Shown piece by piece: positions 8,769 through 19,883 of a stretch of DNA of 46,127 nt (position 1 is the first letter of the stretch; every line of letters begins with the position of its first letter). The translations under genes were made by a program, and so were the position numbers. The notes beneath the pieces are model-generated. The model ran no database searches. It was not told where the DNA came from and saw only the letters and a list, made by a program, of their open reading frames with translations. The DNA is from Actinomycetota bacterium (GTDB lineage: Bacteria; Actinomycetota; Acidimicrobiia; IMCC26256; PALSA-555): positions 1 through 46,127 of the forward strand of contig VGCA01000004.1 of the NCBI GenBank assembly GCA_016870245.1, in the 5' to 3' direction.

Positions 8769-10453
8769 CGGCGGGCGCGCACGGAGGCCACACGGTCGGC
8801 GCGCTTCGCGCGCAGCTTCGCTCCGCGGCTGTACTCCAGCGCATCGAACGGTTCGGGGTCGGGCGGCACCGTCGCCGGATCGATGAGCTGGGTGCCCATG
8901 TACATCTCCACGATCAGCGGCCGGTCGAGGATCTTGCCGGCGCAGAAGACGCCCCCGGTGATCCCGCCGGCGACGCCGTGACCCGAGACCGTGTTGGCGC
9001 CGACGACGTACAGCCCCTCGATCTCCGTCCGGTGCTGCGGGCGGTGCTCACCGACCTGATCGGGTGAATGCATGTAGCCGTAGCTGGTGCCGCCGCTCGA
9101 GTGCACGTAGCGCTGGTGCGTCAGCGGGGTCGCGGTCTCGAGGTGCACCAGGTGCCCGCGCAGGGGGCCGAGCACCTCTTCGGCGGCGTCGAGCAGGCGG
9201 TCGGTCAGCTCCTGCTTGCGGGCGCGGTAGATCTCGTTGCGCCGGTACTGCTCACCGTCGGCCGGTCCGGCCTCCACGCCCCAGAAGTCGAACCCGCGCG
9301 GCGCCAGCGTCATGATCTGGAAGTTGGTGTGGCCGGGTGGGCACAGCTCGGCGTTGCCCGGGTCCTTGCGTGACGCGATGGCGATGTAGGCGAACGGCAC
9401 CCTGCTCTCCGGCAGGTGCCCCGCGTCGAGCTCCGCGTACATCTCGTCGGTGCGGTAGTCGGGGAACACGAAGTAGTTGGTGTTCGGACCCTCGATCACC
9501 CGGTCCACCACCGCGTACACGCACACCAGGGCCAACGTCATGCGTGCTTCCTCGGCCCAGGCGAAGGTGCCGGGGGAAACGTGCTCGCGACCCACCAGGT
9601 GCTCGATCGTGCGGCGGTAGTCGGCGTTGGACACGACGATCGGCGCGTCGAGCACGCGGCCGTCGGTCAGCCGCACCCCGGTGGCCCGCCCGCCCGCCAC
9701 CTCGATGCGCTCGACCGGTGAGAGCGTGCGCACCTCCCCGCCGGTGGCCTCCACGGCCTGCACCAGCCGGGCGGCGATCATCTGCCCGCCGCCTTCGGGG
9801 TAGTAGGCGCCGCTCATGTAGTGGTTCACGATGCCGGCGTGCATCACCGTGGCGGTCTGCTCCGGGCCGCCCGCGTACAGGCCGCTCCAGTGGTCGATCA
9901 CCGCGCGGGCCTGCTGCGAAAGCTCGCTCTGGTCCAGCAGGTCGCCGAGCGGGCGCATGGCCCACCGGTCGAAGGTGGGGCGTTCGCCGCCGAAGACGTT
10001 GCGGCTCTCCTCGGCCACGGTGCGCAGCGTGCGCAGGCACCGTTCGATGCCGGCCCGCTCCGCGGGGAACTGCGCCACCAGCCGCTGCTCGTACGCGTCC
10101 CAGCCCACCGGCACCCGGAACGTGAAGTCGGGGAAGTGCAACGTGTCGAAGCCGTCGGGATCGAGCGGCCGGAACCGGATCCGGTCGCCGACGCCGAGCG
10201 CGTCGAAGATGGTGGGGAACAACCCGCCGGGCTGGCACTCACCGATGTAGTGCACGCCGACGTCGAACTCGTACCAGTCCTCGCCCCCGCCCGGCACCGT
10301 GTGGTGGCGGCGGAACACCTGCAGGTTGCCGCCGGCCACGTCGTGGCGTTCGAGCACGAGCACCCGCATGCCGGCGGAGCCGAGGCAGGCGGCGGTGGTC
10401 AACCCGCCCGGCCCGGAACCGACCACGATCGCGTCCCACTGCTCGTCGCTCAT
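8756..10453 (-). CDS. Phytoene-dehydrogenase/retinol-saturase-like FAD oxidoreductase
   Basis: A 565-residue protein opening with an FAD-binding motif, IVVGSGPGGL (GSGPGG at residues 12-17). It belongs by overall pattern to the CrtI/CrtO/retinol-saturase superfamily. Features include the helix after the Rossmann turn with an ERH...GGN motif and the FDVGVHYIGE segment, which resembles retinol 13,14-reductase. The C-terminus has VVGANTVSGHGVAGGITGG. The start is the ATG at 10453, which overlaps the stop of the upstream monooxygenase by ATGA (10450-10453). The two are therefore one translationally coupled operon. A role in saturating or desaturating a polyene or ring substrate together with the monooxygenase is plausible, but the substrate is unknown. 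Confidence 0.82.
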   Translation of the reverse strand: MSDEQWDAIVVGSGPGGLTTAACLGSAGMRVLVLERHDVAGGNLQVFRRHHTVPGGGEDWYEFDVGVHYIGECQPGGLFPTIFDALGVGDRIRFRPLDPDGFDTLHFPDFTFRVPVGWDAYEQRLVAQFPAERAGIERCLRTLRTVAEESRNVFGGERPTFDRWAMRPLGDLLDQSELSQQARAVIDHWSGLYAGGPEQTATVMHAGIVNHYMSGAYYPEGGGQMIAARLVQAVEATGGEVRTLSPVERIEVAGGRATGVRLTDGRVLDAPIVVSNADYRRTIEHLVGREHVSPGTFAWAEEARMTLALVCVYAVVDRVIEGPNTNYFVFPDYRTDEMYAELDAGHLPESRVPFAYIAIASRKDPGNAELCPPGHTNFQIMTLAPRGFDFWGVEAGPADGEQYRRNEIYRARKQELTDRLLDAAEEVLGPLRGHLVHLETATPLTHQRYVHSSGGTSYGYMHSPDQVGEHRPQHRTEIEGLYVVGANTVSGHGVAGGITGGVFCAGKILDRPLIVEMYMGTQLIDPATVPPDPEPFDALEYSRGAKLRAKRADRVASVRARRHLD

Positions 10454-11922
10454 TGCCCGCGCGCCGCGCTCCCCCGGGGACGAACTTCGTACGACCCCGG
10501 GCCGTCGGCACGGAGCCGCGCGCAGTAGTCCGCCATCGAGTTCGGCCATTGCGTCACGATCCGCCCCGACGGGCCGCGGTAGTAGCCGCCGTGCTCGCCC
10601 TGCCAGACGGCGATGCCATCGAGCTCGTGCTGCAAGGCGTCGTTGTACGCGTCCATGACATCCGGCCGGACGTCGATCCAGGCGGTGTCCGTCTCGTCCA
10701 TCCACTGCAGCATCCGGACCGCGTACTCGACCTGGCACTCGATCATGTACATGATCGAGCCGTTGTTCGTGTTGGGTCCGTAGAGCATGAAGATGTTGGG
10801 GTACCCGGAGGTCACGACCCCGAGATACGCCCGAGGATCGCTCTCCCAGTCCTGCTGGAGCCGACGCCCGCCGCGACCCACGACGTCGATGGCCGCGAGG
10901 TACTTCGTGGTCGAGAAGCCCGTGGCGAGCACAATGACGTCGACCGCTCGCTCTTGCCCATCCACGGTCTCGATGCCGGCCGCGGTGATGCGCGCGATGC
11001 CGTCCGTCACCAGCTCGACGTTCGCCCGGTTGAACGTCGGGTAGTAGTAGTTCGACACGATCGGGCGCCGGGCGCCCCAGGGCATCCGGGGCGTCAGCTC
11101 GCGCCGGATCTCGTCGTCCTCGACGGCCGCCAGGTTCTGGAGGCCGGCCGCCTCGGCGTTCCGCAACGCCTCCGGATCCGAGAAGGTCATCATCGCGTTG
11201 ACGCCGTCGATGAGCTTCTGGCGCAGCTGCGGCATGGCTCCGGGGTCGGTCCGAAACCGCTCCCGATCCTCGTCGGTGTAGGGCCGGTCGTCCTTGGGGA
11301 GCACCCAGGTCGGGGTCCGCTGGAACACGTACAGCTGCTCGACGGTGGGCGCGATCTCCGGGACGAGCTGGACCGCGCTCGCCGCGCTTCCGACCACCGC
11401 GACGCGCGTGCCGTCGAGGTCGACGTCATCGGGCCAACGGGCCGAGTGGAAGATCGAGCCGGCGAAGCTGTCTGCGCCGACGATGTCGGGCCACGACGGC
11501 TCGTTGAACATCCCGAGTGCGCTGATCACCACGGCCGCCTCGAGCTCCTCGCCGTCCGAGAGCGCGATCCGCCACACCGCATGCGCTTCGTCCCAGGCCG
11601 CTCCCGTCACGGCCGTCCCCAAGCGCAGGTGGGGTTCGAGGCCGTACTTCTTCGTGCAGTGCTCGAGATAGTCGCGGATCTCCGGTTGACGCGCGTAGCG
11701 CTGCGACCACTCCGGGTTCAGCTCGAACGAGAAGGAGTACAGGTGCGACATGACGTCGCACTCGGCCCCCGGGTAGCGGTTGTGGTACCAGGTGCCCCCC
11801 ACGCTCGACGCCTGGTCGACGATGACGAAGTCGCGGTAGCCGGCTTCGAGCAGGCGCACACCCGCGCAGATCCCACCGGGCCCGGCGCCGATCACGACGA
11901 CGCGGCGACGGTCCGCCTCCAC
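10450..11922 (-). CDS. Flavin-containing (Baeyer-Villiger-type) monooxygenase, second paralogue
   Basis: A 490-residue class B flavin monooxygenase. It has GAGPGG at residues 12-17 and VGSAASA near 178-183. The Baeyer-Villiger fingerprint runs from Phe153 to Trp163 (FAGSIFHSARW), and an ATGF segment follows. It shares blocks with the enzyme at 7182-8768, for example RYPG-x-x-CDVMSH, LNP-x-W, QPEI and the C-terminal LYGPNTN. Duplication within the locus is likely. It is the first gene of a minus-strand pair with the CrtI-like oxidoreductase. It is transcribed divergently from the crotonase at 12027, from a 104-bp intergenic region that carries a palindromic candidate operator. Confidence 0.88.
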   Translation of the reverse strand: MEADRRRVVVIGAGPGGICAGVRLLEAGYRDFVIVDQASSVGGTWYHNRYPGAECDVMSHLYSFSFELNPEWSQRYARQPEIRDYLEHCTKKYGLEPHLRLGTAVTGAAWDEAHAVWRIALSDGEELEAAVVISALGMFNEPSWPDIVGADSFAGSIFHSARWPDDVDLDGTRVAVVGSAASAVQLVPEIAPTVEQLYVFQRTPTWVLPKDDRPYTDEDRERFRTDPGAMPQLRQKLIDGVNAMMTFSDPEALRNAEAAGLQNLAAVEDDEIRRELTPRMPWGARRPIVSNYYYPTFNRANVELVTDGIARITAAGIETVDGQERAVDVIVLATGFSTTKYLAAIDVVGRGGRRLQQDWESDPRAYLGVVTSGYPNIFMLYGPNTNNGSIMYMIECQVEYAVRMLQWMDETDTAWIDVRPDVMDAYNDALQHELDGIAVWQGEHGGYYRGPSGRIVTQWPNSMADYCARLRADGPGSYEVRPRGSAARGQ

Positions 11923-11967
11923 GTCAGCGCCCTCGTCGTGTCGCCGCCATCGGCGCGGATCCTAGAC

Positions 11968-11997
11968 GAGACAAAGAGGCAATGTTTGCCCTATGAT
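11968..11997 (+). promoter_or_regulatory. Candidate promoter with embedded palindromic operator
   Basis: On the plus strand, GAGACA (11968-11973) and TATGAT (11992-11997) are separated by 18 bp and make a plausible -35/-10 pair for the crotonase at 12027. Between them sits a perfect inverted repeat, GGCAA-TGT-TTGCC (11978-11990). An operator in the spacer is a classic repressor position. A TetR-family gene lies in the same operon (12828-13460), so autoregulation is the simplest reading. The promoter assignment is by eye. Confidence 0.5.
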
Positions 11998-12026
11998 CCA
12001 ACCCTCCATCAGCACCGGGGAGCCTC

Positions 12027-12815
12027 ATGTCGAACGGCGACGCCGCCACGAGCCCGATCACGGTGACCGCCGACGGGGGCGTGCGCATCGTCACGCTCGA
12101 TCGCCCCGAGCACGGCAACGCCGTCAACAACACCATGCACCGGGCGTTCAGCCGGCTCTGGGACGACCTCGCCGACGACATCGACGCCCGGGCCGTCGTC
12201 CTCACCGGAGCCGGGTCGACGTTCAGCGTCGGGGGGGACCTCGTCGAGTGGCTCCAGAACTACGTCGAGGACCCGGTCACGAGCCGCCTCGGCATGCGAG
12301 ACGCGCGTCGCATCGTGCGGGACATGATCGACTTCCCCCTCCCGATCGTCGCGGCCGTCAACGGGCCCGCCGTCGGGTTCGGCTGCAGCATCGCCGTGCT
12401 GTGCGACATCGTGCTGATCTCCGACCGCGCGTTCCTCGCGGACACCCACGTGGCGAGCGGGCTCGTGGCGGGCGACGGGGGTTCCGTCGCCTGGCCGCTC
12501 CTGATGAGCCTCCTCAAGGCCAAGGAGTACCTCTTCCTCGGCGAGCGCATCCCCGCCCAGGTCGCAGTCGACATCGGCTTGGCGAACCGTGTCGTTCCCC
12601 ACGACGACGTGAAGACGGAGGCCCTCGCGCTCGCGCACAGGCTCGCGGCGCTGCCGCCGCGCGCGCTCCAGGACACGAAGCGTGCGTTGAACCTGCACCT
12701 CGAGCGAGCCATCAGCGGCATCCTCGAATACGGGATCTCCGCCGAGTCGGAGTGCTTCCGGACTCCGGAGCACCGCGCCGCGATCGAACGCTTCTTGCCG
12801 AACGATGAGAAGTAG
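12027..12815 (+). CDS. Enoyl-CoA hydratase/isomerase family protein (crotonase fold)
   Basis: A 262-residue crotonase. The first oxyanion-hole segment is GSTFSVGGDL (about residues 63-72) and the second is NGPAVGFGCSIA (112-123). In classical enoyl-CoA hydratases a catalytic Glu occurs in the PE-x-x-x-G block; here the aligned position is His141 (ADTHVASG). The second acid region reads AGDGGS, with Asp150. Hydratase chemistry is therefore doubtful, and isomerase, hydrolase or C-C bond chemistry should be considered. The start has a GGGGAG ribosome-binding site (12017-12022). The TetR gene begins 12 bp after the stop, in the same operon. Confidence 0.87.
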   Translation: MSNGDAATSPITVTADGGVRIVTLDRPEHGNAVNNTMHRAFSRLWDDLADDIDARAVVLTGAGSTFSVGGDLVEWLQNYVEDPVTSRLGMRDARRIVRDMIDFPLPIVAAVNGPAVGFGCSIAVLCDIVLISDRAFLADTHVASGLVAGDGGSVAWPLLMSLLKAKEYLFLGERIPAQVAVDIGLANRVVPHDDVKTEALALAHRLAALPPRALQDTKRALNLHLERAISGILEYGISAESECFRTPEHRAAIERFLPNDEK

Positions 12816-12827
12816 GACCGATGCTGC

Positions 12828-13460
12828 ATGGCGCTGAGTCCGGCTTCTGACGTGTCCGCCGACGATGTGAGCCGGTCGCTGCAGGCGAGCCGCGAGTCGG
12901 AGATCATCGGCGCCGCGCTTCGATGCTTCCGGCAGTTCGGCATGCACAAGACGACGCTGCAAGACGTCGCCGACGCCGCCGGGCTCTCACGAGCCACCGT
13001 CTACCGGTACTTCCCCGACCGCGCGGTGCTGCTCGCGGCCGCGGCCGACCATGCCACACGCGAGATGTACGAGCGGGCCGCGGCCGCGGCCTCTCGTGGA
13101 ACGACCCTCGAGGACCAGGTCGCGGCGTTCGTCGAGGAGCAGGTCCGGGCCGGCGTCGACCAACGGGCCCGCCAACGAGTGCGCGCAGCCGAGCGCGACG
13201 CCGACTTCCTCGAGACCTACCTCCAGCGGGCCGATCGCGCGGCGCACACGCGCATGCAGTACTTGAAGCCGTACGTCGAAGCCGCGCGGGACCGTGGCGA
13301 GCTGCGCGACGACGTCACCGTCGACGAAGCGTGCGAGTGGCTGTCCATCGCCATGTTCTCGATGATCTTCTGGCCCAGCGGCGAGCACTTCGACGCCGAC
13401 GATCCGAAGAGCGTGAGCCGGTACTTCGCCCGCCACGTCTGCCGCGGGCTCACTGCGTGA
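12828..13460 (+). CDS. TetR-family transcriptional regulator
   Basis: A 210-residue TetR-type repressor. The N-terminal helix-turn-helix is clear at about residues 26-64: AALRCFRQFG, then TTLQDVADAAGLS, then ATVYRYFPDR. The C-terminal ligand domain is divergent, as usual. It ends in DPKSVSRYFARHVCRGL, which closely parallels the end of the second TetR at 16954-17562, so the two are paralogues. It follows the crotonase by 12 bp. The likely target is the palindrome at 11978-11990 between this operon and the divergent monooxygenase operon, with an acyl-CoA or ring intermediate as inducer. That part is inference. Confidence 0.92.
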   Translation: MALSPASDVSADDVSRSLQASRESEIIGAALRCFRQFGMHKTTLQDVADAAGLSRATVYRYFPDRAVLLAAAADHATREMYERAAAAASRGTTLEDQVAAFVEEQVRAGVDQRARQRVRAAERDADFLETYLQRADRAAHTRMQYLKPYVEAARDRGELRDDVTVDEACEWLSIAMFSMIFWPSGEHFDADDPKSVSRYFARHVCRGLTA

Positions 13461-13481
13461 GCGAATCCCGCTCGTCGGGCC

Positions 13482-14540
13482 TCAGCTGCGTACCGCGACC
13501 GACTGCATGATCGTCTCACCCCAGGACGGCAACGCGATCGCGTGCAGGCTGCCCCGGCCCCCACACACGATCGGGACGAGCTGCTCCGGTGCCCGGGCGA
13601 GGTGCACGCGACCGTCGTCATCGACCCGGCCCAGCGTCCGGAGGATCTCCTGATTCCCCTCGGGCCACAGGTCGATCGGCTGCCAGGCGTGCTCGTGGAC
13701 GAAGGCCTGCAGGTCTCCGATCTCCGGGAACTCCGCCCCGAAGCGCTGCGCCCACACCGGGTTGAACGCGACCATCGTCTCGCCTCGCGACGCGATCACC
13801 TCCACCATGAGGTTGGTCAGCGGGACCGCCAGCGACCTGCCCACGAGTGCCAGCAGATCCCCGACCGCGTCGTTGTGGATGTCGACGAGCGGGAAGGTGC
13901 CCTTGCTCGCGTGCACCGTGACCACTTCCTCCATCGCGCCGAAGCCGGCGCGTTGCGCGAGCGACGGCCACGGCGACTCCTCCTCCCACTCGCCCACGCA
14001 CAGGCCGGACACCCGGGCCGGTTGCCCGAACACGCTCTTCGACGTCGTCGGCACCCGCTGACCACCGAGGTTGCGCAGACACAGCTGCACGGCCCGACCG
14101 ATCGTCGAGGACCCCCGACCTCCGGCGCCGCCCATGCACCCGCCCTGCATGTCGAAGCCGAGCTCGGCACGGCGCGGACCGTTCACGACCAGGATCGGCG
14201 TCACGCTCGACGTCGTGGCGGCGACCGCGCTCCAGTTGAAGCCGGGTGCCATGATCGCTTCGAGCGCCGCGACCACGTACCCGAACGCCCGAGGCTCGAC
14301 CCCCGCCATGGCGGCGTTCACCGCGACCTTCTCGACCGTCACGTCGTTCGCGGCGGGGGCGAGCATGCCCAACAGGTCGCCCGGCGCGAGGGGCGTGTGG
14401 TCGAGCATCGCCGCCACCGTCGACTCCCGGGGCAGGAGCAGCGGGAGGCCGTCTCCGAAGCCCTCGCGCAGCGAGTACTCGTAGAACTCGAGCGGATCGG
14501 CGGGGACCCGCAGTCGGCGGCTGGCGAGCTCCCCCTTCAC
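13482..14540 (-). CDS. Partner protein of the UGSC selenoprotein (conserved, function unknown)
   Basis: A 352-residue cytoplasmic protein whose GTG start (14540) overlaps the stop of the selenoprotein gene by GTGA (14537-14540). The two are translationally coupled. I recognise it as the family, commonly found beside UGSC proteins, whose N-terminus has a GDGLP-x-x-x-P block (residues 29-37). A TVEKVAVNAAMAG segment (68-80) follows. Other conserved features are a glycine-rich GGCMGGAGGRGSS (133-145) with Cys135, and Cys326 in VPIVCGGRG. No established activity is known to me. The frame remains open far upstream of this start, but that region overlaps the selenoprotein and is a shadow. It converges on the TetR gene 21 bp away. 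Confidence 0.8.
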   Translation of the reverse strand: MKGELASRRLRVPADPLEFYEYSLREGFGDGLPLLLPRESTVAAMLDHTPLAPGDLLGMLAPAANDVTVEKVAVNAAMAGVEPRAFGYVVAALEAIMAPGFNWSAVAATTSSVTPILVVNGPRRAELGFDMQGGCMGGAGGRGSSTIGRAVQLCLRNLGGQRVPTTSKSVFGQPARVSGLCVGEWEEESPWPSLAQRAGFGAMEEVVTVHASKGTFPLVDIHNDAVGDLLALVGRSLAVPLTNLMVEVIASRGETMVAFNPVWAQRFGAEFPEIGDLQAFVHEHAWQPIDLWPEGNQEILRTLGRVDDDGRVHLARAPEQLVPIVCGGRGSLHAIALPSWGETIMQSVAVRS

Positions 14541-15091
14541 GGGACCACCCCCAGGAGCTCCAGGAGCTTCGGGTAGTACTCGCGACCGATCGCCCGGCAC
14601 TCGGCTTCCTCGCGGGACTCGAGTGGGTACGGGAGGACCAGCTGCCTGAGGCTCGCGCGGCCCTTCATGAGCGCGACCCGCGTGGCGATGACGCCGAACT
14701 CCTCCGTGATCACGACCACCGACGGCTTCTCCAGCTCCTCCACGAGCACGGCGTCGTGGACACTCCACGACGTGCACGATCCTCAGTTGCCGAGGCCCAC
14801 CACGCCGACGTCGATCAGGCGCGACCACTCTTCCAGATCGCTGCGGGTCCGCTCCCCCTCGGCCCCCACCCGTTCGCCGACCCACACGACCTTCGGCACG
14901 GCACCGTCGGCGACCAGCAGTCGCTCCCACTCGTCGACGATGGCCACGTACGAGCGCCACACCGCGTCGAGCCGGAGCCCGACGACCTTCCCCGCGATCG
15001 GTCCGCCGACATCGAAGGTGGCGCTCTCCGGCTCGTGCGGGCGGGCCTCCGCCCGTGGGTCGAGGACGAACGCGTACGCACGGTCGGTCAT
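14537..15091 (-). CDS. UGSC-family selenoprotein with in-frame UGA (Sec103)
   Basis: One 184-residue protein if the TGA at 14783-14785 is read as selenocysteine. The ATG at 15091 follows a strong GGAGGAGAGAGG ribosome-binding site. Residues 1-102 end VGVVGLGN, then comes U103-GSCTSWSVHD, and the same frame stays open for another 81 codons to the stop at 14537. N-U-G-S-C-T is the signature of the UGSC family of (seleno)proteins, in which some members have Cys at the Sec position. Sec103 and Cys106 form a U-x-x-C redox motif. A perfect hairpin just downstream (14752-14772) is a good bacterial SECIS. It lies between an SDR (20-bp gap) and its partner gene. Biochemical function is unknown. A pseudogene split by a stop is the alternative, but is disfavoured by the motif and hairpin. 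Confidence 0.88.
14752..14772 (-). promoter_or_regulatory. Bacterial SECIS element
   Basis: Read on the minus strand, 10 nt after the UGA comes CGTCGTGG, a 5-nt loop AGTGT, then CCACGACG. This is an uninterrupted 8-bp stem. The apical loop starts 18 nt after the UGA and has G at its second position. Both fit the published bacterial SECIS model as I know it: apical loop about 16-37 nt from the UGA, with a G among its first two bases. It would recruit SelB with selenocysteinyl-tRNA. A further 3 bp (GCA/UGC) could extend the stem past a 3-nt bulge. Confidence 0.8.
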
Positions 15092-15111
15092 CCTCTCTCC
15101 TCCCTCGGGGA

Positions 15112-15906
15112 TCAGTGGAACGCAGACCGGTCGATCTGCCCCGTGGTCGTGACCGCGGTCCAGCCGCCGTCCACGTCCACGATCGCACCCGAGCACCACG
15201 CGGCGTCGCGGCTCAGGAGGAAGACGATGGTCGGGGCGACATCGGCGGGGGTGCCCATCCGGCCCATCGTCGTCGCCGCCGCCACGCCGTCGATCATCCG
15301 GTCGCCCACCACCTCCCGGAAGTCCTTCATCATCCGCGTCTCGAGAGGTCCGGGAGACACCGCGTTCATGCGCACGGCGAGCTCGCGGTAGAGCGTGTGC
15401 GAACGCCGCATCGTGTAGACCTGCACGCACTCCTTCGAGAAGTTGTACGGGTCACCCTGCGCTTCGAGGTTCGCCTCGCACCAGCGTTCGCCGGCGGCGA
15501 AGTCCGGCGTGTCGAGCAGCCCGTTGATCACGTCCGTCCGGAGCGGCCAGCCGTTGCCGGCGTTCGACGCGACGTTGACGATGGCCGCGTGGTCGGCCAT
15601 CCTCGGCGCGAGGGTCTCGGTGAGATGACGAAGCCCCAGGAAGTTCACCCGCATCACGTCGAGCGAGTCGTGCGTCTGCGGGAGCCCGGCGACGTTGGCG
15701 AGGAGATCGACCGGCGCAAGGTGTGCGACCGCACGATCCACCGAGCCCGGGTCGGCGAGGTCGACGGCGACGATGGGGATGCCCTCCAGATCCCCGGCAC
15801 CGAGATCGAGACCGGTGACGCGCGCGCCGCGCTCGCGGAGCAGGAGCGCGGTCGCGCGCCCCAGACCGTTCGCCGCCCCCGTGACCACCGCGTGAAGCCC
15901 GTTCAT
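15112..15906 (-). CDS. SDR-family oxidoreductase
   Basis: A 264-residue short-chain dehydrogenase. The nucleotide-binding TGAANGLG is at residues 9-16 and NVAG at 71-74. The catalytic Tyr154-x3-Lys158 is in YNFSK, and the C-terminus has the usual GAIVDVDGG. A 3-alpha-hydroxysteroid-dehydrogenase/carbonyl-reductase-like insert (roughly residues 120-150) precedes the active-site Tyr. I chose the ATG at 15906, where the Rossmann motif begins; longer versions run into the upstream SDR. It lies 35 bp after the SDR at 15942-16844 and 20 bp before the selenoprotein, in one minus-strand operon. It probably oxidises a hydroxyl on the ring substrate or its CoA ester. Confidence 0.88.
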   Translation of the reverse strand: MNGLHAVVTGAANGLGRATALLLRERGARVTGLDLGAGDLEGIPIVAVDLADPGSVDRAVAHLAPVDLLANVAGLPQTHDSLDVMRVNFLGLRHLTETLAPRMADHAAIVNVASNAGNGWPLRTDVINGLLDTPDFAAGERWCEANLEAQGDPYNFSKECVQVYTMRRSHTLYRELAVRMNAVSPGPLETRMMKDFREVVGDRMIDGVAAATTMGRMGTPADVAPTIVFLLSRDAAWCSGAIVDVDGGWTAVTTTGQIDRSAFH

Positions 15907-15941
15907 TGGACGCTCCTCCCACGCTCCGACGGACGCGCTGC

Positions 15942-16844
15942 TCAGTCGCGCGGACGGTCGAAGATGTTCGGCCAGAGGATCGCCGACTGGAACGATTCCT
16001 CCATCTCGTCGTAGACGCTGTCGTCCCACGTCCCCGTGGTCGACACGATCTCGCGGGTGACCTCCGGGTTGCTCAGGAGGCTGATGCGACCGTTCCCCGC
16101 GAAGATCACGCGTCGGGTGAGCCACGACGAGCGTTCACTCGCCAGGTACACGACCGGCGGCACGACGTTGGCCGGCGAGAGCTTCGGGTCCGACGCGTAA
16201 TCGAAGGACGCCTTTCCGGTGGCGATCCCCGTCGTCATCCGCGTTCCCGCGATCGGTGAGATCGCGTTCGCCGTGACCCCGTAGCCCTTCAGCGCGTTCG
16301 CGCACGAGAACGTGAGTCCGACGATGCCCATCTTCGCGGCCGCGTAGTTGGGCTGACTGGGCGCGCCGAACAGCCCCGAGGCCGACGTGAAGTTGATCAG
16401 CCGGTACTCGCCGCCGCGGTGCTCACGCCACCACGCCGAGGCGTGACGGGTCGTGTTGAACGTGCCCTTCAGATGCACGTTCACCACCGCGTCGAAGTCG
16501 GCCTCCGACATCTTGAAGATCATCCCGTCGCGGAGGATCCCCGCGACGTTGACGAGGATGTCCAGCCGGCCGAAGTCGGCGACGGTCGACTCGACCAGCC
16601 GCTCGCACGCGTCGAAGTCGGTGACGTCGGTCGCGTCGGCCTTCGCCTGGCCGCCCGCGGCCGAGATCGCGTCCGCGACCTCGCGCGCCGGGCCGGCGTC
16701 CCCGCCGGTTCCGTCGACCTCGACCCCGAGGTCGCTCACCACGACGGTCGCCCCGGCGTCGGCGAGTCCCGCCGCCACCGCCGCACCGATCCCCCGGCCG
16801 GCTCCGGTGACGATCGCCACCCGTCCGTCGAGCATCAACCCCAC
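15942..16844 (-). CDS. SDR-family 3-hydroxyacyl-CoA-dehydrogenase-like oxidoreductase
   Basis: A 300-residue SDR with TGAGRGIG at 13-20, NVAGILRD at 99-106 and Tyr167-x3-Lys171 in YAAAK. The NxAGILRD block and the approximate length resemble the SDR half of peroxisomal-type multifunctional enzyme 2/17-beta-HSD4. Actinobacteria use such enzymes as (R)-3-hydroxyacyl-CoA dehydrogenases. No fused MaoC domain is present; the last roughly 60 residues are a distinct tail. It is the first gene of the operon that continues with a second SDR, the selenoprotein and its partner. An in-frame ATG at 16835 is an alternative start. Confidence 0.87.
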   Translation of the reverse strand: MGLMLDGRVAIVTGAGRGIGAAVAAGLADAGATVVVSDLGVEVDGTGGDAGPAREVADAISAAGGQAKADATDVTDFDACERLVESTVADFGRLDILVNVAGILRDGMIFKMSEADFDAVVNVHLKGTFNTTRHASAWWREHRGGEYRLINFTSASGLFGAPSQPNYAAAKMGIVGLTFSCANALKGYGVTANAISPIAGTRMTTGIATGKASFDYASDPKLSPANVVPPVVYLASERSSWLTRRVIFAGNGRISLLSNPEVTREIVSTTGTWDDSVYDEMEESFQSAILWPNIFDRPRD

Positions 16845-16872
16845 CCTCCCGCACCGTCCGCTGGGAAGGGAA

Positions 16873-16886
16873 CCATAGATCGATGG
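16873..16886 (-). promoter_or_regulatory. Imperfect palindrome upstream of the SDR/selenoprotein operon
   Basis: The 14-bp sequence CCATAGATCGATGG is symmetric apart from one mismatched pair (positions 5 and 10). It sits 29 bp upstream of the ATG of the SDR at 16844, in the 109-bp gap after the TetR gene. It is a candidate operator for the adjacent TetR regulator, but this is weak evidence by eye. Confidence 0.3.
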
Positions 16887-16953
16887 AACAGAATTCGCCA
16901 GATCGTCTCGCCACGATCCGCTGCCGCCACCGCGCGGAGGCAGCGGTCGGGAC

Positions 16954-17562
16954 TCAGCCCGCGAGACCGCCGACCGCGTACCGCCGCATGAACCGCGAGA
17001 CCGACTTCGGGTCGTGGACGTCGAACGAATCCGAGGTCGGGGTGGTCGTGATCGACATCAGCACGCGGGCGATCCATTCGCTCGCCTCGCGGACGTCGGC
17101 GTTCGACCGGATCTCGCCCCGCGTCTTCGCCGTCTGGAGATACGGGACGAGGAAGCGCGCCATCCGCAGGAGTGCACCCGCCCGGTCCTCACCGCTCAGC
17201 CGCATGAGGGCCATGTCGTCCGGTCCCAGGCGGTGGTCCTGGATGCCGGTGACGCTCTCCGCGAACACCTCGCCCAGTGCTCCGAGCTGGGCCGCCAGCG
17301 TCTTCTGGGCGGCCATCCGCGTGGCGGCCATCGCGTAGTAGCTCTCCGCGCGGTGCTCGATCGCGGCGTCGATGAGCGCCCGCCGCTCGGGGAAGTACCG
17401 GTAGACCGTGCCCCGCGAGATCCCCGCGGCCCGCGCCACGTCCTGGAGGTTCGTCTTCGCGATCCCCAGCTGCCCGAAGCACTCGAGCGCGGCCTCGAGG
17501 ATCTTCGTCCGCGTTGCGTCGCGATCAGAGCTCGCCCGCCGGTCACTCGTGCTCGCGCTCAC
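16954..17562 (-). CDS. TetR-family transcriptional regulator
   Basis: A 202-residue TetR repressor with a GTG start. The helix-turn-helix spans about residues 20-61: ILEAALECFGQLG, TNLQDVARAAGIS, then GTVYRYFPER. Its C-terminal DPKSVSRFMRRY segment mirrors the TetR at 12828-13460, so the two are recent paralogues or share a ligand class. It starts 18 bp after the Rieske oxygenase gene ends and is probably co-transcribed with it. The next gene downstream is the SDR that heads the selenoprotein operon, 109 bp away. It is a likely local repressor of the Rieske and/or selenoprotein operons. Confidence 0.92.
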   Translation of the reverse strand: MSASTSDRRASSDRDATRTKILEAALECFGQLGIAKTNLQDVARAAGISRGTVYRYFPERRALIDAAIEHRAESYYAMAATRMAAQKTLAAQLGALGEVFAESVTGIQDHRLGPDDMALMRLSGEDRAGALLRMARFLVPYLQTAKTRGEIRSNADVREASEWIARVLMSITTTPTSDSFDVHDPKSVSRFMRRYAVGGLAG

Positions 17563-17580
17563 GTCCGGGGACGATACCGG

Positions 17581-18981
17581 CTAGGTGTCGGCCTCATCGT
17601 GATCGACGCCGAACAGGTACCGATCGGCCACCTGGTGCGCGTGCAGGATCGTCGTCTCCTGGATGCCGTTGAGCCAGAGCCCGTCGAACCCGTCCGAGTG
17701 CATGCCCGCCTGGATGTCGGGGATGTTCTTCAGGTCCTGGGCCAGGAACGGTCCGAGGTCGGCCTCCCGCCAGTTCGGGAAGACCTCCCACTTCGGGTTC
17801 GGCTCCGCACCCGGCACGAAGTGCTCCAGGGAGAAGACGTCCCAGATGCACGAGTCGGGATCGCTGCCGTTCGGTCGCATCCGGTATCCGAGCGTGGATC
17901 CGGGCTCGACGAGGATCACCATCGTCGGGAAGACGTGGTAGTCGCCACAGCCCATGAAGTGCTGCTCGATCGACATGTCCGGGTAGGTGACCACACCCTC
18001 GTCCTGCGCGAGCTGCTTGCACAGGCCGAGATAGGTGATGATCGGCGGCACCTCCGACGGCTCCATGGTTGCGAGCATCTCGGCCGCCCGGGCGTCGCGC
18101 TCGGTCTGCATCGCACCGAGTGCGCGCGCGAGGTACTGCATCAGGTTCGCGTAGATCTCCGGGCGGGCGAGCACCGCGGCCCACTCCTCGGCCTGGGGTC
18201 CCTTGTCGGGTCGCTCGCCGTACTTCATGACCGAGTGGCTCCCCAGTGGGAACGTCGGGGAGAAGGGTGCGTGCGCGAACTCGTCGATGGCCGCGGGCCG
18301 AGCCGACGGGTCCGTGCCCTCCATGGGTCGCAGCGTCTGCGGATGGGTCCCGGGGGTGTGGTACCCCTCGACGAACGCGTCCACCACCGTCTTCCAGTTG
18401 GCCGGAACGACCACCGTCTTGCACCACCGGTACCGCATGTCCTCGAGCCGGAACGGGTCGAGCAGGCTCGGGATCGGATCGAGCCACTCGAGGAGCGGCG
18501 GCGGGTCGCTCGCCATGTTGACGAACACCCAGCCGCCCCACGTGTCGACGTGCACGGGCCGGAGCGCCCAGTCGGCGGCCGGGCGGTCCTCGAACTCCTC
18601 CGGGCAGTGCACGAACGTGCACGCGCCGTCGAGCGCGTAGCGAAAGCCATGGAACCGGCAGCGGAACTCGTCGACGCGGCCGGAGCCACCGATGATCTTC
18701 ATGCCGCGGTGGCGACAGGCGTTGTGCATCGCTCGCAGGGTGCCGTCGGCCTGGCGGACGACGAGGATCGACCGCTCGCCGATCGCGTACTCGTGGAACG
18801 AGCCCGCATTGGGGATCTCCTCCTCCCGACACGCCATCTGCCAGACGTTCGGGAAGAGCCGCTCGTGCTCGAGGCGAGCGAAGTCGGCATCCACGTACCG
18901 TCCCTTGGGCACGAAGCCGTGGCCGAGCGCCCAGCGCTCGGGGACCGAGGCCCGCTCGGTCGCACCTGCCGTGTTCGTCAT
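17581..18981 (-). CDS. Rieske non-heme iron aromatic-ring/ring-hydroxylating oxygenase, alpha subunit
   Basis: A 466-residue oxygenase starting at the ATG at 18981, with ribosome-binding site GGGAGG; a longer frame upstream has no family similarity. The Rieske 2Fe-2S site is C89-x-H91 (NACRHRG) and C108-x2-H111 (FRCRFHG). The mononuclear iron site follows in VEGYHTPGTH with His208 and His213. Glu205 occupies the place of the bridging Asp of naphthalene-dioxygenase-type enzymes. Such proteins hydroxylate rings or methyl groups using electrons from a separate ferredoxin/reductase. No reductase, ferredoxin or beta subunit is encoded in this window, so those must be supplied from elsewhere. It is divergent from the SDR at 19095. 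Confidence 0.9.
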   Translation of the reverse strand: MTNTAGATERASVPERWALGHGFVPKGRYVDADFARLEHERLFPNVWQMACREEEIPNAGSFHEYAIGERSILVVRQADGTLRAMHNACRHRGMKIIGGSGRVDEFRCRFHGFRYALDGACTFVHCPEEFEDRPAADWALRPVHVDTWGGWVFVNMASDPPPLLEWLDPIPSLLDPFRLEDMRYRWCKTVVVPANWKTVVDAFVEGYHTPGTHPQTLRPMEGTDPSARPAAIDEFAHAPFSPTFPLGSHSVMKYGERPDKGPQAEEWAAVLARPEIYANLMQYLARALGAMQTERDARAAEMLATMEPSEVPPIITYLGLCKQLAQDEGVVTYPDMSIEQHFMGCGDYHVFPTMVILVEPGSTLGYRMRPNGSDPDSCIWDVFSLEHFVPGAEPNPKWEVFPNWREADLGPFLAQDLKNIPDIQAGMHSDGFDGLWLNGIQETTILHAHQVADRYLFGVDHDEADT

Positions 18982-19024
18982 CCCGCCGACCTCCCTCGAG
19001 GCTCCCGATGCACCTGGGCTGTGC

Positions 19025-19052
19025 GAGACATTCGAGCAGCATTCGTTATGGT
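19025..19052 (+). promoter_or_regulatory. Candidate promoter for the SDR at 19095
   Basis: In the 113-bp divergent gap, GAGACA (19025-19030) and TATGGT (19047-19052) are 16 bp apart. This resembles the GAGACA...TATGAT pair ahead of the crotonase at 12027. A direct repeat CATTCG (19029-19034 and 19040-19045), spaced exactly 11 bp apart, overlaps it and could be an activator or repressor site. Assigned by eye only. Confidence 0.35.
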
Positions 19053-19094
19053 GTGCAACAGATGGCGGCAACCTGAAACGTCTGCGGAGGACCG

Positions 19095-19883
19095 ATGGGA
19101 CGGCTCGACGACAAGGTCGTGATCGTCACCGGCGCCGGGGAGGGGCTCGGCCGGACGATGGCCGAGCTCTTCAGCCGGGAGGGCGCGAAGCTCGTGCTCG
19201 CGGGGCGGCGACGGGAGCTCCTCGACGAGACCCGCGCACTGGTCGAGGCGGGGGGCGGCGTCGCCCTCGTCGTGCCCACCGACATCACCGACGAGGCGGC
19301 GGTGGTCGACCTCGTCGGCACCACCGTCGGCGAGCTCGGCGCGGTCGACGTGCTGTGCAACAACGCGTCGCAGCCGGGCACCGACCTGTACCTCTGGGAG
19401 CAGACCCTGGACAACTGGAACGGCTGCATCGCGGCCGTGGTCACCGGTCCCATGCTCTGCACGAGGGAGGTGCTGAGGCAGAGCATGCTGGAGCGCCGTT
19501 CGGGCTCGATCGTCAACTTCTCCTCCACCGCGTCGATCGACGGCTTCGCCCGCAAGAGCCACTACACCGTGGCCAAGAGCGGGCTGCGCCTGCTCACCAA
19601 GACGACCGCGCACGAGGTCGGGCCGTTCGGGATCCGCTGCAACTGCATCGTCCCGGGCGCCATCGAGACCGGGCTCCTGCACCGCTACTGGAACCGCGTC
19701 GCCGACGAGCGGGGTGTCTCCGTCGACATCGTGCGCGAGGAGTCGACGGCGGCGGCGGCGCTGCGCAAGGTGGCGTCACCCGACGAGGTGGCCCAGGCCG
19801 CGCTCTTCCTGGCGTCGGACGAGAGCAGCGCGATCACCGGTCAGTCGATCATCGTGGATGCCGGGCAGCACATGTACGGGTAG
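19095..19883 (+). CDS. SDR-family oxidoreductase
   Basis: A 262-residue classical SDR. TGAGEGLG is at residues 12-19 and CNNAS at 88-92 in place of NNAG. Catalytic Tyr157-x3-Lys161 is in YTVAK, and the C-terminal GQSIIVDAG closes the fold. The ATG at 19095 has a good GGAGG ribosome-binding site (19086-19090). It is transcribed alone, divergent from the Rieske oxygenase, and converges on the lipoyl-domain gene 17 bp away. It may oxidise the alcohol or dihydrodiol formed by the Rieske enzyme, judging only by position. Confidence 0.88.
   Translation: MGRLDDKVVIVTGAGEGLGRTMAELFSREGAKLVLAGRRRELLDETRALVEAGGGVALVVPTDITDEAAVVDLVGTTVGELGAVDVLCNNASQPGTDLYLWEQTLDNWNGCIAAVVTGPMLCTREVLRQSMLERRSGSIVNFSSTASIDGFARKSHYTVAKSGLRLLTKTTAHEVGPFGIRCNCIVPGAIETGLLHRYWNRVADERGVSVDIVREESTAAAALRKVASPDEVAQAALFLASDESSAITGQSIIVDAGQHMYG

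Follow-up and report, generated by a model that had tools for sequence, protein, structure and literature searches.

A UGA-containing UGSC-family selenoprotein gene and its linked partner in a catabolic cluster of an Actinomycetota bacterium

The Locus and Its UGSC Gene

The window analysed here, that is, the whole stretch of 46,127 nucleotides of contig VGCA01000004.1 from an Actinomycetota bacterium, carries on its minus strand a gene of the UGSC family whose frame contains an internal UGA codon (Table 1). The family was described in 2008 from ocean metagenomes, where, with 255 members found, it was among the most abundant selenoproteins (PMC2398784), and, according to a review of 2026, such families are still largely uncharacterised (PMC13188914). 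As the first-pass annotation of this DNA had proposed, the frame opens with the ATG at 15091, meets a TGA at 14783-14785 and then stays open for 81 more codons up to the terminal TGA at 14537-14539. Translation with the internal TGA read as U gives a product of 184 residues in which the codon is flanked, again as proposed, by the residues ...VGLGN-U-GSCTSWSVHD.... An SD-like GGAGG lies upstream of the ATG. Without rules for selenocysteine (Sec), the same gene reads as an ORF of 102 residues and another of 70 residues (GTG at 14749).

Comparison of the conceptual 184-residue product with the UGSC family, which had been suggested as a check, places the Pfam domain PF24696 over residues 9-181 and across the TGA (E 8.8e-28, 98 bits against a curated cut-off of 25), and the U/C-G-S-C motif of the family is present as UGSC at residues 103-106. 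Since one Pfam domain runs across the TGA, the frame is not a product of chance. In addition, differences from same-genus copies are distributed alike over the three codon positions on both sides of the TGA (with L062, for example, 11/8/30 before and 10/11/26 after), and the alignment column of Sec103 is invariably U or C in 48 aligned relatives. The NCBIfam equivalog model NF041046 matches the product with 72 bits, which is under its 125-bit cut-off, so that the window protein represents a divergent subfamily that this model does not name.

Table 1. Coordinates of the features at the UGSC locus, numbered from the first position of the window
Feature	Position	Strand	Description	Basis
Partner gene, unnamed family	13482..14540	-	352 aa; GTGA overlap with the UGSC stop	Adjacency and matching counts
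UGSC-family selenoprotein gene	14537..15091	-	184 residues, Sec at position 103	Translation, PF24696, NF041046
SECIS-like hairpin	14752..14772	-	Begins 13 nt past the U of the UGA	
In-frame UGA for selenocysteine (U103, UGSC motif)	14783..14785	-	C106 is the second half of U-x-x-C	
Short-chain dehydrogenase	15112..15906	-	About 20 nt upstream of the UGSC start	Pfam adh_short_C2
Short-chain dehydrogenase SDR_b	15942..16844	-		Pfam adh_short; synteny
TetR-family regulator	16954..17562	-		
Rieske ring-hydroxylating oxygenase alpha subunit	17581..18981	-		

The surroundings of the gene are catabolic. From 10450 to 19883 the window encodes a flavin monooxygenase (FMO), an enoyl-CoA hydratase, the Rieske oxygenase, several short-chain dehydrogenases (SDRs) and two TetR regulators, and CoA-transferase-like matches lie further along at 22.8-26.3 kb. 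The SDR gene next to UGSC probably shares an operon with it, and in about a dozen related loci UGSC has an SDR_b homologue upstream. The likely arrangement is an operon of SDR, SDR, UGSC and partner, preceded by the TetR regulator and by the Rieske oxygenase gene, the latter being possibly part of the same cluster. PADLOC returned no match.

Decoding of the UGA Codon

The first-pass annotation had deduced that the organism makes selenocysteine, and it had named two findings that would tell against a selenoprotein, namely a genome devoid of the Sec machinery and homologues in which the protein ends at residue 102. The machinery is encoded in the genome (385 contigs, 95% complete), in support of the deduction: a tRNA-Sec scores over the cut-off (72.6 bits, anticodon UCA), selA and selB lie side by side on one contig (C225; SelA 457 bits), and SelD is present with 406 bits. 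Homologues continue through the site with either Sec or Cys, and the Cys codons that were to be looked for in relatives are present in sister clades at exactly the same codon. In particular, across 114 distinct UGSC sequences this codon is TGA in 61 and Cys in 53, and the UGSC tree needs 10 changes between the two states, at least five of which are forced by well-supported branches. The window gene lies inside an all-Sec clade (22 rows, SH-aLRT 98), and every member of its sister clades, which bear GLGTC and GLGNC motifs and come from Acidimicrobiia MAGs, Frankia, Phytohabitans, Sphingobium and other Proteobacteria, has Cys.

Of the seven UGSC genes in the window genome, six contain a single TGA and the seventh has Cys. 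The seven UGSC-partner pairs lie on contigs C22, C87, C71, C253, C163 and C18 (L050-L055) and at 13482-15091 of the window, and a related genome (G015) has eight such pairs. Among 100 genomes, the window's own and those of relatives, SelB is found over the cut-off in 38 of the 41 with a UGA-type UGSC gene versus 2 of the 11 with Cys-only UGSC genes (Fisher p 3e-6). The three UGA-type genomes without SelB over the cut-off are 79, 88 and 94% complete; G006, which is 94% complete, has three UGA-type UGSC genes and no SelB match at E 1e-60.

Downstream of the codon lies a SECIS-like hairpin, CGUCGUGGA-GUG-UCCACGACG. Its folding energy by itself is not significant (z -1.8), and thus the case for it rests on the comparison of Sec with Cys genes; an Rfam scan across the UGSC gene gave no match to a SECIS family. 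The best stem has a mean of 7.3 bp in the 61 Sec rows versus 4.3 bp in the 53 Cys rows, and at the pair 20-26, the neighbour of the loop-closing pair, 31 of the 61 Sec genes have C-G and 22 have G-C, a compensatory exchange. The loop reads GUG in 44 of the 61 Sec genes, whereas none of the five commonest loops of the Cys genes is GUG. Moreover, where the loop codon encodes Ser, 47 of 54 Sec rows use AGU versus 1 of 12 Cys rows (p 3e-7, the p-values of this comparison being optimistic as the rows are related to one another). Within a single clade (GSAD), the codon is AGU in four Sec members and AGC in their four nearest Cys relatives. As judged by this comparison, the hairpin is retained in Sec genes and eroded in Cys genes, as expected of a bacterial SECIS element. 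Collectively, as far as sequence can tell, the window gene is a genuine selenoprotein gene and not a pseudogene, and it is a new member of the UGSC family known since 2008.

The prediction that standard annotation would break up such a gene is borne out elsewhere. Indeed, UGA-containing UGSC genes of a Paracoccus plasmid (L137:7411-7980) and an Acidovorax plasmid (L175, around 6359) are annotated as two small ORFs or a truncated one, the Paracoccus record having two small ORFs over one such gene. UGA-containing members of the family are, in this way, missed by annotation. In the Paracoccus plasmid, a selB gene lies about 4.4 kb from UGSC.

A Conserved Partner Gene

The partner gene, which the first-pass annotation missed together with the relationship to GrdB and PrdB presented below, is matched by no family model of Pfam or NCBIfam. 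A homologue of it adjoins UGSC in nearly all loci with enough flanking sequence, and UGSC and partner gene counts are equal in 93 of the 100 genomes; this linkage, like the Sec gene and its machinery, is read from the DNA itself. One exception to adjacency is L102, where the contig ends beside the UGSC gene. No adjacent partner-like gene was found in the sister Cys-type loci L112 and L114, in each of which UGSC adjoins a TauD-like dioxygenase-like ORF. Gene order depends on the clade: the partner comes downstream of UGSC in the clade of the window gene and in the Cys sisters of that clade, and upstream in the ALAD and GSAD clades. In haloarchaea, three plasmids (L138, L170 and L173) have UGSC between partner paralogues (partner-UGSC-partner), and at one locus (L177) a partner stands with no UGSC beside it. 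Finally, a Variovorax plasmid (L176) encodes a single fused protein in which a UGSC domain with an intact CGAC is followed by the partner.

The invariant residues of the partner are D30, G31, P33, G80, G121, G148, R149 and E184. Its alignment contains no invariant Cys, and the redox residues of the pair therefore lie in UGSC. The structure model of the partner is confident (pLDDT 93.3); its Foldseek matches to class I fumarase (query TM at most 0.31) and to Toblerone were rejected as evidence owing to low TM and large rmsd.

The neighbours of the pair have also been compared among relatives. A plasmid-borne relative in Arthrobacter has the pair with trxB (thioredoxin reductase) and trxA (thioredoxin), those in Roseovarius and Variovorax SRS16 have it with trxB, and TrxB-like genes occur near UGSC in further relatives; the clade of the window gene showed none near UGSC. 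The pairs of the plasmid relatives are also near CoA-transferases, TRAP or tripartite tricarboxylate transporters and other organic-acid genes. On plasmids of Vibrio (L133:7359-9044) and Sporomusa (L136:7362-9086), UGSC-partner fusions have MGTS as the motif. Both the U/C and the C are lost in these fusions, which adjoin aconitase X and DUF126 genes. The UGSC scaffold can thus serve without the U/C-x-x-C residues, and the MGTS fusions are possibly a non-redox offshoot.

A Distant Relationship to GrdB and PrdB

The AlphaFold model of UGSC (pLDDT 92.7) consists of five parallel beta-alpha units in a Rossmann-like arrangement, with Sec placed between a strand (95-101) and a helix (104-119). Its best PDB fold matches are weak and mostly flavodoxin- or quinone-reductase-like (TM about 0.5), and the 50 best include no thioredoxin. 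The published guess of a Trx-like fold was rejected in favour of the Rossmann-like beta-alpha repeat predicted by the model. One fold match is to 8s7v_H, a chain of the MCR activation complex, and a few UGSC members weakly match Pfam MCR_C (best 0.0019) and the CGGC domain.

A sequence search of solved structures with UGSC, the partner and GrdB gave nothing meaningful. A profile of PF07355, the family of glycine reductase selenoprotein B (GrdB) and D-proline reductase PrdB, was built from sequences of the same relatives, and hhalign aligns UGSC with it, Sec on Sec, at a probability of 93% and an E of 4.4e-7, a value that refers to a pairwise test of a family chosen beforehand and is not corrected for a database. 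The alignment spans about 82 columns at 21% identity and continues past Sec through the helix, an E-x-x-G-I-P stretch and a C-terminal P-x-P stretch. Upon masking of the motif in both profiles the E value is 1.4e-5, and the region after the motif alone gives 1.1e-6. As for the controls, the reversed PF07355 template reaches 0.08, the best of 60 column shuffles 0.033, and the best of nine unrelated families from the same loci 0.0035. Single UGSC subclades score between 4e-4 and 3.6e-8, the latter for GSAD, with 6.7e-8 for the halophile AYGD and a weaker 1.5e-4 for the window's own clade. The PF07355 model itself has no match in the window UGSC protein or among the families listed for 48 UGSC proteins. 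Since this model misses UGSC, the relationship is called distant homology of the Sec domain rather than membership, and, as a reading of these profiles, distant homology between the Sec domains of UGSC and of GrdB/PrdB is well supported.

The same genome also has a short PrdB-like gene of PF07355 that is interrupted by a UGA (L152, G000:C1:56248-56670; ...VVLLTPV-U-PLCSRTV...). The partner, in turn, scores E 0.3 against the GrdE profile and gives nothing against that of GrdB. As no profile similarity links it to GrdE, which is the known pyruvoyl partner, the chemistry of the pair may differ.

A Model for the UGSC-Partner Pair

In the proposed mechanism, SelB, tRNA-Sec and the downstream hairpin would let ribosomes read the UGA at 14783-14785 as Sec, yielding the 184-residue UGSC protein, and since the UGSC stop overlaps the partner start, readthrough probably also couples translation of the partner. 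A complex, its chemistry, a thiol donor and a class of substrate can then be inferred. Most likely, UGSC and the partner are subunits of a single enzyme, the UGSC subunit being Rossmann-like with Sec103 at the helix start and the partner most likely serving to bind the substrate. Analogy suggests that Sec103 would attack a substrate carbon beside a carbonyl, with release of a leaving group; Cys106 would then resolve Sec103 as a selenenyl sulfide, and thioredoxin or another thiol would recharge it. The substrate would be a carbonyl-activated intermediate of the SDR/oxygenase/CoA catabolic cluster. The preferred reading, with a probability of about 0.6, is thus a functional Sec gene whose product and the partner make up a two-subunit, thiol-dependent reductase within a catabolic cluster. 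The earlier suggestion that the protein is redox-like and takes part in the surrounding pathway is plausible. More tentatively, and at somewhat less than even odds, UGSC and the partner may constitute a widespread, undescribed class of two-subunit selenoenzymes in aerobes, performing GrdB/PrdB-like reductive cleavage with a new, non-GrdE subunit for the substrate, fed by thioredoxin or another thiol, and acting on intermediates of organic-acid or CoA pathways.

The main rival, which appears unlikely, is a two-subunit lyase, isomerase or racemase that would use Sec as a nucleophile or base with no net reduction. It draws on the two Cys-pair-less fusions beside aconitase X and DUF126 and on the weak resemblance of the partner model to the class I fumarase fold, but the latter match is too weak to count, the U/C-x-x-C is otherwise strictly kept, and trxB or trxA adjoin the pair in some relatives. 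Still lower stands a generic thioredoxin-like thiol/selenol oxidoreductase or peroxidase, as in the metagenome papers, with neighbours that are incidental. The U-x-x-C motif would suit such a protein; however, the modelled beta-alpha units do not follow the Trx order, thioredoxins are missing from the 50 best fold matches, the UGSC profile matches GrdB/PrdB, and the tightly linked partner would be left unexplained.

Readings without selenocysteine are far less credible. A pseudogene, a sequencing error or two short proteins meeting at the UGA could appeal to the ORFs of 102 and 70 residues seen without Sec rules, but is very improbable given the identical TGA in 61 distinct homologues with Cys in 53, the one domain and the similar codon-position pattern across the site, and the presence of the Sec machinery. 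Hardly any weight is left for a genome-wide reassignment of UGA, for example to Trp or Gly. Such a change would account for a TGA inside an open frame, but TGA terminates UGSC, the partner, both TetR genes, the FMO and both upstream SDR genes, tRNA-Sec, SelA, SelB and SelD are all encoded, and the site alternates with Cys rather than Trp or Gly. As TGA is an ordinary stop in the neighbouring genes, UGA is not reassigned.

The reductase reading is set against a literature that, where searched, treats UGSC as functionally unknown. Among the papers searched, which take in a minority of the subscription journals, there is no mention of the GrdB/PrdB relationship or of a linked partner beyond a fusion to 'Unknown_1'. 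The new points are the near-constant adjacency of UGSC to the same unnamed partner and an active site apparently related to that of GrdB/PrdB. Together with the thioredoxin neighbours in some relatives, they offer a concrete and testable enzyme hypothesis for a defined pair of proteins.

Relation to Known Systems

With the UGSC family (PF24696/NF041046), the window protein shares the same domain from end to end, the same motif and the alternation of Sec and Cys (PMC2398784). It differs in scoring under the NF041046 cut-off and in having its partner downstream with the GTGA overlap, whereas the partner is upstream in other clades. The 2008 ocean survey found UGSC fused to a conserved domain, 'Unknown_1' (PMC2398784), which may be the partner family. 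Glycine reductase and proline reductase both act by reductive cleavage, and the former is recharged by thioredoxin (PMC13188914). UGSC resembles GrdB and PrdB in the Sec in register, in the layout of strand, U-x-x-x and helix, and in the E-x-x-G-I-P and P-x-P stretches, while the partner in the window is not GrdE-like (profile E 0.3). The glycine and proline reductases known so far come from anaerobes that ferment amino acids, whereas UGSC lies here in a cluster that contains oxygenases.
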